NCBI GenBank assembly: GCA_902776945.1 | Contig: CACYSH010000004.1 | Coordinates: forward strand, 7,170-61,674 | Origin: an uncultured Ruminococcus sp. | GTDB lineage: Bacteria; Bacillota; Clostridia; Oscillospirales; Ruminococcaceae | Length of the DNA: 54,505 nt | Direction of reading: 5' to 3' | In this document: one piece after another, positions 11,470 through 49,074 of the stretch | How positions within the stretch are numbered: position 1 is the first letter of the stretch | Layout of the letters: every line of letters begins with the position of its first letter | Made by a program: the position numbers and the translations under genes | Notes under the pieces: generated by a model | What the model saw: the letters and a program-made list of their open reading frames with translations, nothing else | Database searches by the model: none | What the model was told of the DNA's origin: nothing

Positions 11470-12705
11470 ATGGCAAAAGAAATCAAAAAGGTAGTGCTTG
11501 CTTACTCGGGCGGACTTGATACTTCCATAATCATTCCGTGGCTCAAAGAGAATTACAACAACTGCGAGGTGATCGCGGTTTCCGGCGATGTGGGTCAGGG
11601 TACCGAGCTTGACGGTCTCGAAGAAAAGGCTATCAAGACAGGCGCTTCGAAGCTCTACATCGAGGATCTTAAAAAGGAATTCATCGAGGAATACGTTTAC
11701 CCCACCGTTCAGGCGGGCGCTGTTTACGAGAACAGATACCTTCTCGGCACTTCGTTTGCGCGTCCTATCATCGCTAAGAGAATAGCTGAGATCGCTCTTA
11801 AAGAGGGCGCTGACGCTATCTGCCACGGCTGCACCGGCAAGGGCAACGATCAGGTTCGCTTCGAGCTTGCCATTAAGAGATACGCTCCCGATATGCAGAT
11901 AATCGCTCCCTGGAGAATATGGGACATCAAGAGCCGCGATCAGGAGATCGACTACGCAGAGGCTCACAATATACCGCTCAAAATAAATCGCGAGACAAAT
12001 TATTCAAAGGACAAGAACCTCTGGCACCTTTCGCACGAGGGTCTCGACCTTGAAGACCCCGCCAACGAGCCGCAGTACAACAAGCCCGGTTTCCTGGAGC
12101 TTGGCGTTTCTCCCGAAATGGCTCCCGACAAGCCGACCTACGTTACCATTCACTTCGAGAAGGGCATTCCCACCGCTGTTGACGGCGTTGAAATGGACGG
12201 TCCCGCTCTCGTTGGCAAGCTCAACGAGCTTGGCGGCGCTAACGGCATCGGTCTTGCCGACCTTGTTGAGAACCGTCTTGTCGGCATGAAGAGCCGCGGC
12301 GTTTACGAGACTCCCGGCGGAACCATTCTCTACCACGCTCACGACGTTCTCGAAACCATTACCCTTGACAAGGAGACCGCGAGAATCAAGCAGTATCTTT
12401 CGATCAAGTTTGCGGACATCGTTTACAACGGTCAGTGGTTCACTCCCCTGCGCGAAGCGCTTTCCGCTTTCGTTACCGAGACGCAGAAGACCGTTACCGG
12501 CGACGTTAAGCTCAAGCTCTACAAGGGCAATATCATCAACGCGGGCGTTACCTCGCCGAACACTCTGTACGACGAGGAAGTTGCGACCTTCGACGAGGAC
12601 GATGTTTACGATCAGAAGGATTCTGCCGGATTCATCAACCTGTTCGGTCTGCCGATAAAGGTAAGGGCGAAGCTGGAGCAGAAGCGCGGCGGAAGCATCG
12701 AATAA
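11470..12705 (+). CDS. argG: Argininosuccinate synthase
   Basis: ArgG condenses citrulline and aspartate with ATP to argininosuccinate, the penultimate step of arginine synthesis, in the cytoplasm. The ATP pyrophosphatase P-loop AYSGGLDTS is at residues 11-19. Further family signatures are [15 protein letters not shown] and SYSKD-type [15 protein letters not shown]. The 411-aa length is normal. GGAGG lies 9 nt before the ATG. It is the first arginine gene of the region and has its own promoter and probable ArgR operators. Codon use is markedly optimised compared with the neighbouring small genes. Confidence 0.98.
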
Positions 12706-46912: not shown

Positions 46913-46935
46913 TATTGACCCGCTGACAGACAAAA

Positions 46936-46966
46936 CTATCTTTTATCCTTTATCTTCTTATCTTTT
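46936..46966. repeat. AAAGATA-type 7-mer array at the hisF stop codon
   Basis: Plus-strand units TATCTTT (46937-46943), TATCCTT (46944-46950), TATCTTC (46951-46957) and TTATCTTT run into the hisF stop codon. The same sequence, with preceding 'gacagacaaaac', is found at the hisG stop (51892-51940), and a shorter form at hisH (47870-47889). Confidence 0.85.
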
Positions 46967-47720
46967 ATCTCACGATTATGCCCTTACTGCGGCAGTCGTC
47001 CTTTACCTGCCCTACTGTCAGCTCGTGGAAATGGAACAGGCTTGCCGCCAGCGCCGCCGAGCAGTCGGTTTCAAGAAAAGCCTCCGCAAAATCGCCCAGC
47101 TTGCCCGCGCCGCCGCTCGCAATGACGGGTATCTTAACCGCGTCAACAACGGCTTTCAGCATCGGCAGGTCGAACCCGCCCCGCACGCCGTCGGTATCTA
47201 TCGAGTTTAAGCATATCTCGCCCGCGCCGAGCTGTTCGCACTTCTTCACCCAGTCGATAAGGTCAAGCCCCATGTCGATACGCCCGCCGTTGATGTAGAC
47301 TGTCCACTTGCCGGGACTTACCGCCTTAGCGTCCACGCCCACGCAGATGCACTGGCTGCCGAAAATATCCGCGCCGTCCCTGATAAGCTGCGGATTCTGC
47401 ACCGCCTGCGAATTGACCGATACCTTATCCGCGCCCGCACGGAGCGTATTGCGTATGTCGTCTACGGTCTTGATGCCGCCGCCGACCGTCAGCGGAACGA
47501 ACACCTTTTTCGCGGTCTCGCACACGACATCGAGGATAACTCCCCTGCCCTCGTGCGAGGCTGTTATATCATAAAATACTATCTCGTCAGCGCCCTGTAA
47601 GTTGTATTCATAAGCGCACTCAACGGGGTCGCCGACCTCCTTTATCCCCTCAAAATTCACGCCCTTGACGACCTTGCCGTCGCGCACGTCGAGACAGGGG
47701 ATTATTCTTTTTGCAAGCAT
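46965..47720 (-). CDS. hisF: Imidazole glycerol phosphate synthase subunit HisF
   Basis: HisF is the cyclase that joins ammonia from HisH to PRFAR, giving imidazole glycerol phosphate and AICAR. The TIM barrel shows the catalytic Asp11 in [15 protein letters not shown], the phosphate motifs VGGGIKT and IASGGAG, and [12 protein letters not shown]. The 251-aa length is normal. GAGGTGA lies before the ATG. A 166-bp gap holding a CRISPR-like repeat pair separates it from hisH, where many operons carry hisA. Its stop codon is in AGATAA, the start of a 7-mer AGATA repeat. Confidence 0.97.
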
Positions 47721-47739
47721 TACGTCACCTCATTGTTTA

Positions 47740-47829
47740 GTATCACCCCCGCGAGTGCGGGGAAAAGGTGGGGCGATAACGAATATGTCTATTTTGTCCA
47801 GGGTCAACCCCGCGTGTGCGGGGAAAAGG
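47740..47829 (+). CRISPR. Relic type I-E-like CRISPR: two repeats, one spacer
   Basis: Two 29-bp repeats (47740-47768 and 47801-47829) share 25 of 29 positions and enclose one 32-bp unique spacer (47769-47800), giving the exact 61-bp period of type I-E arrays. Each repeat has the I-E hairpin: CCCCGCGAGTGCGGGG and CCCCGCGTGTGCGGGG, with GGGGAAAAGG after it. The orientation is plus, opposite to the his genes. No leader or cas gene is visible. It may be a solo relic array, or a mobile repeat that resembles one. Confidence 0.72.
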
Positions 47830-47886: not shown

Positions 47887-48495
47887 TTATCTTGTTCCGA
47901 TAAGCCCCGCGAAGTTTTCCAGTATCTTCAAGCCCGTCTTACCGCTCTTTTCGGGGTGGAACTGACAGCCGTAAACAAACTTTCCGTCCGAAACGACCGC
48001 CGGCACCTTCCCGCCGTACTCAACATAAGCGTTAAGTTCGCCGTCGGGACAGAACGCCTGATAAGAATGGACAAAATAAACAAAGTTATCGCCCAAGCCC
48101 TCAAACAGCGGGCAGGGGTTCGCGTATTCGAGCTTGTTCCAGCCCATGTGCGGTATTACAAGCCCGGTGTCGGGGATCTTGTCCACATAGCCCTTGACAA
48201 GCCCCAGACCCTCGCACTCCTCAAACTCGAAGCTCTTCTCGAAAAGCAGCTGCATACCTAAGCATATCCCCATGAACGGCTTTACCTGCGACTGCGCCTT
48301 TATTGTATCCACAAGCCCGCTTTCGCAGAGCTTTCTCCACGCGGCGGGGAAAGCTCCCACACCCGGCAGGATAAGCGCGTCGGCGGCTTCGAGGTCGCTC
48401 TTTTCGCTTGTCAGCTTGCTTTCAAGCCCGAGATAATCAAGCGCGTTCTTCACCGAGAAGATGTTCCCCGCGCCGTAATCAATAATCGCTATCAT
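47887..48495 (-). CDS. hisH: Imidazole glycerol phosphate synthase glutamine amidotransferase HisH
   Basis: HisH is the class I glutaminase that supplies ammonia to HisF. IIDYGAGNIFSVKNAL starts the fold, the nucleophile Cys lies in FMGICLGMQLLFE, and the His/Glu pair is in CQFHPEKSG. The 202-aa length is normal. The ATG directly follows the hisB stop codon, and AAAGGAG is inside the last hisB codons. The stop codon is in AGATAAAAGATA, a 7-mer repeat motif shared with hisF and the MATE gene. Confidence 0.97.
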   Translation of the reverse strand: MIAIIDYGAGNIFSVKNALDYLGLESKLTSEKSDLEAADALILPGVGAFPAAWRKLCESGLVDTIKAQSQVKPFMGICLGMQLLFEKSFEFEECEGLGLVKGYVDKIPDTGLVIPHMGWNKLEYANPCPLFEGLGDNFVYFVHSYQAFCPDGELNAYVEYGGKVPAVVSDGKFVYGCQFHPEKSGKTGLKILENFAGLIGTR

Positions 48496-49074
48496 TTATA
48501 ACACTCCTTTTGTGGAGAGCACTCCGCCGCCCGTTACCGTCATCGCGTCTTTTAGGGCGTGGGCGGCTGCCTTGAACATCGCTTCAATAATGTGGTGGTC
48601 GTTCTTGCCGTATTCCTCGCGCAAATGCAGCGTTATCCCGCTGTTCATCGCGAAAGCGCGGAAAAATTCCTCCGTAAGGCAGGTGTCGAACTCGCCGCAG
48701 CGGAAATCGGTAAACTTCGCGTTAAAGGCTAAAAACGGTCTGCCGCTGATGTCGAGCGCACAGAAGCTCAGAGCCTCGTCCATAGGCACGAACGCGCTGC
48801 CGTATCTCGCGATACCGCCCTTGTCGCCGAGCGCTTCCGCGACTGCCTTGCCGATACAGATACCTACGTCCTCGACGGTGTGGTGTCCGTCAACGTTCAG
48901 ATCGCCCTTGCAGCGAACGTCCAGATCCATACCCGCGTGAACGCCGAAAGCCGTCAGCATATGGTCAAAAAAGCCTATACCCGTGTCGATATTGACCCGC
49001 CTTTCGCCGTCCAGGCGCACGAACACCTCAATATCGGTCTCTTTTGTCTTGCGTTTTATTTCTGCTGTTCTCAT
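48496..49074 (-). CDS. hisB: Imidazoleglycerol-phosphate dehydratase (monofunctional)
   Basis: HisB dehydrates imidazole glycerol phosphate to imidazole acetol phosphate, with manganese bound by paired histidines. GIGFFDHMLTAF, GHHTVEDVGI and NDHHIIEAMFKA carry the metal motifs. The 192-aa protein lacks the histidinol-phosphatase domain found in enterobacterial HisB, so a separate phosphatase is needed. AGAGG lies 12 nt before the ATG, after the deacetylase gene. Confidence 0.97.
   Translation of the reverse strand: MRTAEIKRKTKETDIEVFVRLDGERRVNIDTGIGFFDHMLTAFGVHAGMDLDVRCKGDLNVDGHHTVEDVGICIGKAVAEALGDKGGIARYGSAFVPMDEALSFCALDISGRPFLAFNAKFTDFRCGEFDTCLTEEFFRAFAMNSGITLHLREEYGKNDHHIIEAMFKAAAHALKDAMTVTGGGVLSTKGVL

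Follow-up and report, generated by a model that had tools for sequence, protein, structure and literature searches.

Type I-E spacers directed against housekeeping genes of the chromosome that carries them have been described before, as in Pelobacter carbinolicus, where an I-E spacer against hisS makes the system self-targeting; the same source lists mutation of the protospacer among the routes of escape from self-targeting and states that in some systems seed pairing suffices for binding without cleavage (PMC6990116). For the CRISPR4 repeat class, a 7-nt handle and a 61-nt crRNA are given, AA is the PAM predicted in silico from phage protospacers, and binding in vitro requires just A or T at position -1 (PMC3890593). 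An effect of the I-E* system on histidine utilisation has also been reported in Klebsiella (PMC12188710).

In this study, a two-repeat I-E mini-array lying between hisH and hisF was compared with these systems. Like the Pelobacter case, it has an I-E spacer that matches a chromosomal housekeeping gene, but the Pelobacter spacer belongs to an ordinary array, whereas here a two-repeat unit stands 239 bp from the matching site within one gene cluster (PMC6990116). With CreTA, as that source describes it, the locus shares two degenerate ectopic repeats round one spacer-like sequence, a type I Cascade and a partly matched neighbouring target; unlike CreTA, no toxin was seen, the target is the coding sequence of hisH, and the near-perfect match to a relative's gene points to direct capture (PMC9458426). 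The Streptococcus thermophilus CRISPR4 repeat agrees by eye with the array repeat of our genome at 25/28 positions, and the 28-nt repeat, the 33-nt spacer and the AA PAM are common to both, though the unit away from cas genes and leader is extra here and a Cas2-DnaQ-like fusion is present (PMC3890593). As with spacers known from archaea, ours matches the housekeeping gene of a close relative; the difference is that it also stands next to the resident orthologue, whose site is altered (PMC3285040). Self-targeting spacers and ectopic mini-arrays are therefore each known, while an array and its altered target side by side are unusual, and a limited search of the open-access literature returned no ectopic mini-array adjoining its matched gene with that target altered. 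We consider, with a little better than even confidence, that the locus is an ectopic I-E mini-array whose spacer was captured from hisH, that the resident hisH escaped lethal self-targeting through a one-codon deletion, and that the cas genes can act in trans.

The window, meaning the whole 54.5-kb stretch of DNA that was analysed, comes from contig C4; the assembly to which this contig belongs (4.0 Mb, 280 contigs, 93% complete) is called here the own genome; G-numbers denote congeners and L-numbers denote loci. The features of the his region are as follows.

46965-47720, minus strand: hisF, 251 aa, downstream of the mini-array
47740-47767, minus strand: repeat 2 (R2), 28 nt, 26/28 against the array repeat of the genome
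47768-47800, minus strand: spacer, 33 nt, hisH sequence
47801-47828, minus strand: repeat 1 (R1; upstream in the crRNA sense), 28 nt, 25/28 against the array repeat of the genome
47887-48495, minus strand: hisH, 202 aa, matched by the spacer and carrying a one-codon deletion
48496-49074, minus strand: gene directly upstream of hisH, 192 aa, which we take to be hisB

The direct repeats (47733-47768 and 47794-47829) have a period of 61 nt, and the whole unit spans 89 bp (47740-47828) of the 166-bp gap between hisH and hisF, and 19 nt separate the end of R2 from the start codon of hisF, which lies downstream. Both repeats keep the 6-bp stem CCCCGC/GCGGGG, and their changes are confined to the loop and the 7-nt handle: one in the loop and two in the 5' handle of R1, and one in each of these parts of R2. 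A sequence-only reading of this stretch had described two repeats 61 nt apart with 6-bp hairpins and of type I-E form, and both points were borne out by the likeness to the cas-linked I-E repeat and by the period, the register now being that of a 28-nt repeat and a 33-nt spacer, a CRISPR4-like I-E geometry. It had placed the array opposite to the his genes, and this has to be reversed: oriented by the cas-linked array and by the S. thermophilus CRISPR4 repeat, as given in the source, the repeats lie on the minus strand, the same as hisH and hisF (PMC3890593). In a scan of both strands of the window, only R1 and R2 reached at least 21/28 against the own array repeat, and the stem with a 4-nt loop occurs at six sites in the 4.0-Mb assembly, two of which are the mini-array. 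Nor do the 90 bp form a dispersed repeat, a possibility raised earlier, as a 131-bp query around the unit gave one full-length match in the own genome along with five short repeat matches. By eye, no leader was recognised beside the array, and the promoter-like matches there are ambiguous. An RNA structure of the hisH-hisF gap as such was set aside, with 26 of 200 shuffles folding equally well (z -1.05). Separately, a dispersed intergenic element (around GACAGACAAAACTATCTTTTATC) was observed at window positions 46929, 47873 and 51894, one of them near the mini-array, and once in G004 after hisF.

The statement that no cas gene is present holds near the array but not for the genome, in which contig C26 carries a full I-E operon of cas3, cse1, cse2, cas7, cas5, cas6e, cas1 and cas2; two repeats come after it, where the contig ends. 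All eight frames (Cas3, Cse1, Cse2, Cas7, Cas5, Cas6e, Cas1 and Cas2) are open and recognised, and Cas2e carries a fused DnaQ-like exonuclease domain (L031 9964-10839; NCBIfam matches both halves). The search for cas3/cse genes and same-repeat arrays that had been proposed was thus answered on C26, with further repeats on C138 and C21. The relatives are not devoid of I-E systems either: Cse1 was found in four of the 13 genus genomes, namely the own genome and three of its 12 congeners (G002, G004 and G005), so that G004 carries I-E cas genes too. Repeats of the own type (at most two mismatches) were seen in the own genome and G005; a less close look-alike is present in own C55, G004 and G007. 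A second, different Cas1 lies on contig C18 of the own genome (G000 C18 772-1644, minus strand, L027, 375-aa frame), and another CRISPR-Cas system may be present in the genome. A weak cas1-like match at 12070-12651 was taken as chance; it falls inside the frame 11470-12705, presumably argininosuccinate synthase.

The spacer had been called unique, but it is hisH sequence. When the 131-bp region was searched against 13 genomes of the genus, the own one included, an exact 30-nt match was obtained in G004 besides the repeats (E 8.5e-9 for that genome), and 29 nt of G012 matched at 90%; both hits fall within hisH. Against hisH of G004 the spacer agrees at 31/33 positions, with the PAM-proximal positions 1-30 perfect and mismatches at 31 and 33, and when it was scored over 32 nt in 82 his loci, G004 reached 31, G012 26 and the next best 25. 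Since the motif is conserved in the protein, shorter hisH pieces of other species also resemble it, one in L072 agreeing at 22/23. The resemblance of the spacer to the his neighbourhood is beyond chance, its score being reached by none of 4000 shuffled spacers and by one of 4000 real 33-mers taken from window positions 1-44000. The suggested comparison with phages and plasmids yielded no such source: no exact match to the 24-nt spacer core was present in viral_contigs, and the weak matches to three records in 'phages' and two in 'plasmids', at E 0.9 to 3, all covered less than 80% of the query. A phage or plasmid origin, for which no match was found in these three collections, was set aside, the match being hisH of G004 instead.

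Upstream of the G004 protospacer stands GAA, which gives an AA PAM, and the one other protospacer found in the genus, that of the G005 mini-array spacer, also has AA. The first base of the spacer is T, in agreement with the G002 and G005 arrays, where the base after the repeat, read at 39 repeats, is T in 31 cases and C in 8 (a few of these spacers being repeated or masked). Derivation of the PAM from viral targets was dropped; the G002 array gave partial matches to 11 records in 'phages', none of which was traced to single spacers, and in the PAM search no exact match was obtained for any of four single spacers, two from the G002 array, one from the G005 array and one from own C26. Though the spacer and its matching site stand 239 bp apart, as would suit a process without CRISPR in which part of hisH was duplicated and came to lie between two hairpin repeats, the exact 28/33/61 geometry, the AA PAM and the T first base fit Cas1-Cas2 capture and both repeats nearly reproduce that of the cas-linked array, and we regard such a duplication as extremely improbable. 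A CRISPR-guided transposon, with a home spacer kept by the target, was rejected, as the 166-bp gap is too short for one and the array is found on the side where the PAM stands; in these elements the home array lies beyond the far end of the target site. The source gives the position as downstream of the target (PMC6990116).

The resident hisH contains the equivalent of the protospacer, with the following coordinates.

48066-48067, plus strand: AA dinucleotide standing as PAM next to the resident site (GAA, like G004)
48068-48100, plus strand (crRNA-like strand): resident protospacer equivalent, shown as 33 nt

This site, which begins at 48068 and is separated by 239 bp from the near edge of R1 at 47828, matches the spacer at 14 of the first 15 bases, including 11 perfect seed bases, after which 3 nt are missing and bases are changed. 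Compared with G004, the resident hisH differs at the protospacer by a 3-bp (one-codon) deletion and two substitutions, so that the own HisH protein reads GDN-FVYFVH and that of G004 GDNEYVYFVH. Inside the protospacer, the spacer agrees with G004 wherever the two alleles differ, and this agreement also suits a form of immunity between lineages, in which the spacer came from transferred hisH DNA of a relative after the resident allele had diverged, and would block foreign his alleles with no escape needed; one source documents archaeal spacers directed at chromosomal genes of relatives (PMC3285040). That account leaves integration 239 bp from the resident site to coincidence, and an own ancestor is equally possible as the source of the spacer; we hold it to be unlikely, though worth keeping in mind.

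The seed match itself bears on whether the unit is an autoregulator similar to CreA, in which a crRNA from the his transcript would bind the resident hisH by its seed and Cascade would repress the operon without cleavage, as feedback. In the own 4.0-Mb assembly, AA followed by the seed without mismatch occurs in hisH only, while one site has one mismatch and seven have two (a reversed control pattern gave 3), the array copy being among the seven because it has no AA. This sole mismatch-free site, with its AA PAM, 11 perfect seed bases and 14/15 match, speaks for regulation, as do the placement of the array on the same strand as the his genes and the three changes in R1 against two in R2, whose direction is as in CreTA according to the source, though the difference is one base (PMC9458426). 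The target, however, lies in the coding region and not in a promoter, the unit was unseen in the relatives searched (among the matches listed), and a PAM-distal escape deletion would leave the seed as well, and we judge regulation of this kind doubtful, slightly more so than immunity between lineages.

The one-codon deletion of hisH is likely an escape from self-targeting, as judged from the alignment with G004. The two genomes are 95% identical in hisB, 91% in hisH and 90% in hisF, and over hisB-hisH-hisF (1.94 kb) the deletion in the protospacer is the sole internal indel, with one further gap at the C-terminal tail of hisH; by arithmetic, one random indel in 1.94 kb would fall in the 33 nt with a chance of about 1.7%. 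Against an escape, the gene upstream of hisB differs by several indels when the own genome is compared with G004, and the protospacer is no richer in substitutions than neighbouring hisH windows, so that the deletion alone stands out. A shorter loop in this stretch of HisH was seen in five of 109 others (L048, L133, L142, L146 and L147) and in none of G002, G004, G010 and G012, the set including 27 readable loci of the 29 family loci L122-L150 (L139 and L140 missing) and perhaps counting some genomes twice from two collections; the change is therefore tolerated without this array. A neutral deletion followed by capture from a relative's DNA yields the identical picture.

In the escape reading, which we prefer, Cas1-Cas2 would have taken the spacer from hisH, either from the own ancestral copy or from that of a close relative, and the I-E cas operon on C26 would serve the mini-array in trans. 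The his transcript would read through the array, and Cas6e would cut both hairpins to release a crRNA for loading on Cascade, which the crRNA would then direct, together with Cas3, to cut DNA with an undeleted hisH such as that of G004. The resident hisH would be spared because pairing there is expected to fail after about 15 nt, leaving at most a short R-loop; weak repression of hisH by such a partial R-loop is possible. Judging from position only, the cut at R2 would also release hisF mRNA with a short leader. On this best reading, an array beside its target gene is tolerated because the resident hisH is an escape allele. The 239-bp distance between array and target is unexplained by escape alone.

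The unit may be silent, given the two handle changes in R1, the lack of a recognisable leader and the ambiguity of the promoter-like matches. This touches on the suggestion that it is an inert relic, i.e., a mini-array from a past ectopic integration that has lost transcription or processing and whose repeats are drifting; the three changes in R1 and two in R2, and the existence of other stray units, would agree with decay, but both 6-bp stems are intact and 30 nt of the spacer continue to match the G004 allele without a mismatch, which makes us think a relic about as improbable as immunity between lineages. These estimates overlap, since a regulator and a relic can both follow an escape. Out of the three origins offered earlier (a decayed array, a seeded ectopic array, and a hairpin repeat recruited into a his mRNA), the seeded ectopic array is the best, though the hisH identity of the spacer and the altered resident site had been missed.

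As for the other stray units, a second I-E unit of two repeats lies near the end of own contig C138 (L032 6655-6743). At E up to 0.001 its spacer matched nothing in the 13 genus genomes, and viral_contigs contained no match to the 23-nt core of that spacer. Own C21 (L033 4483-4510) has a solitary I-E repeat, 27/28, beyond a hairpin resembling a terminator by eye. On G005 C37 (L163 1386-1589), a cas6 fragment (86% over 63 nt) is followed downstream by two repeats. The spacer of this G005 unit fits a gene on contigs C237 (30/33, with an AA PAM) and C217 of the own genome, which we take to be a VirB4-like conjugation ATPase. Ectopic units therefore occur in the genus, and at least one stray unit has the look of plain debris of defence. 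The idea that mini-arrays are in general directed at adjacent genes found no support, the C138 spacer being without a match and that of G005 C37 fitting the gene on C237/C217; of the stray units, only the his unit was seen to match a neighbour gene.

With regard to distribution, the unit was found in one genome only across the 13 genus genomes, the 82 his loci and the relatives among the matches listed. In the proposed comparison of the hisH-hisF gap in relatives, a scan of 82 his loci, a number of them shortened by contig ends, did not find the stem motif at all; in G004 the gap contains a 113-aa frame instead, membrane-like by eye (L037 1718-2059). In the survey of this gap, hisF was within 1.5 kb of hisH in 85 of 107 loci and not in the other 22; the two genes abut or overlap in L041, G002 (L128) and G010 (L123), and are spaced by 3 bp in G012 according to the listed coordinates. 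The junction between hisH and hisF seems to accept insertions.

A further, rather remote suggestion is that the locus is an allele-exclusion module similar to a toxin and its antidote, in which the mini-array attacks DNA with undeleted hisH and the linked deleted hisH serves as antidote. If this were true, linkage would bring joint inheritance and resistance to replacement by recombination, an incoming pair could convert the resident hisH of an I-E-positive relative in a manner similar to a gene drive, and the 239-bp spacing, which the other readings leave to chance, would be explained. The locus resembles a condensed record of CRISPR autoimmunity within a cluster of core biosynthetic genes, with repeats, spacer, PAM and altered target within 1 kb, and the unaltered hisH allele persists in the congener G004, itself with I-E cas genes. 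It offers a way to test how ectopic arrays originate, how an array comes to be placed beside its own target, and whether CRISPR polices housekeeping alleles between sister lineages.
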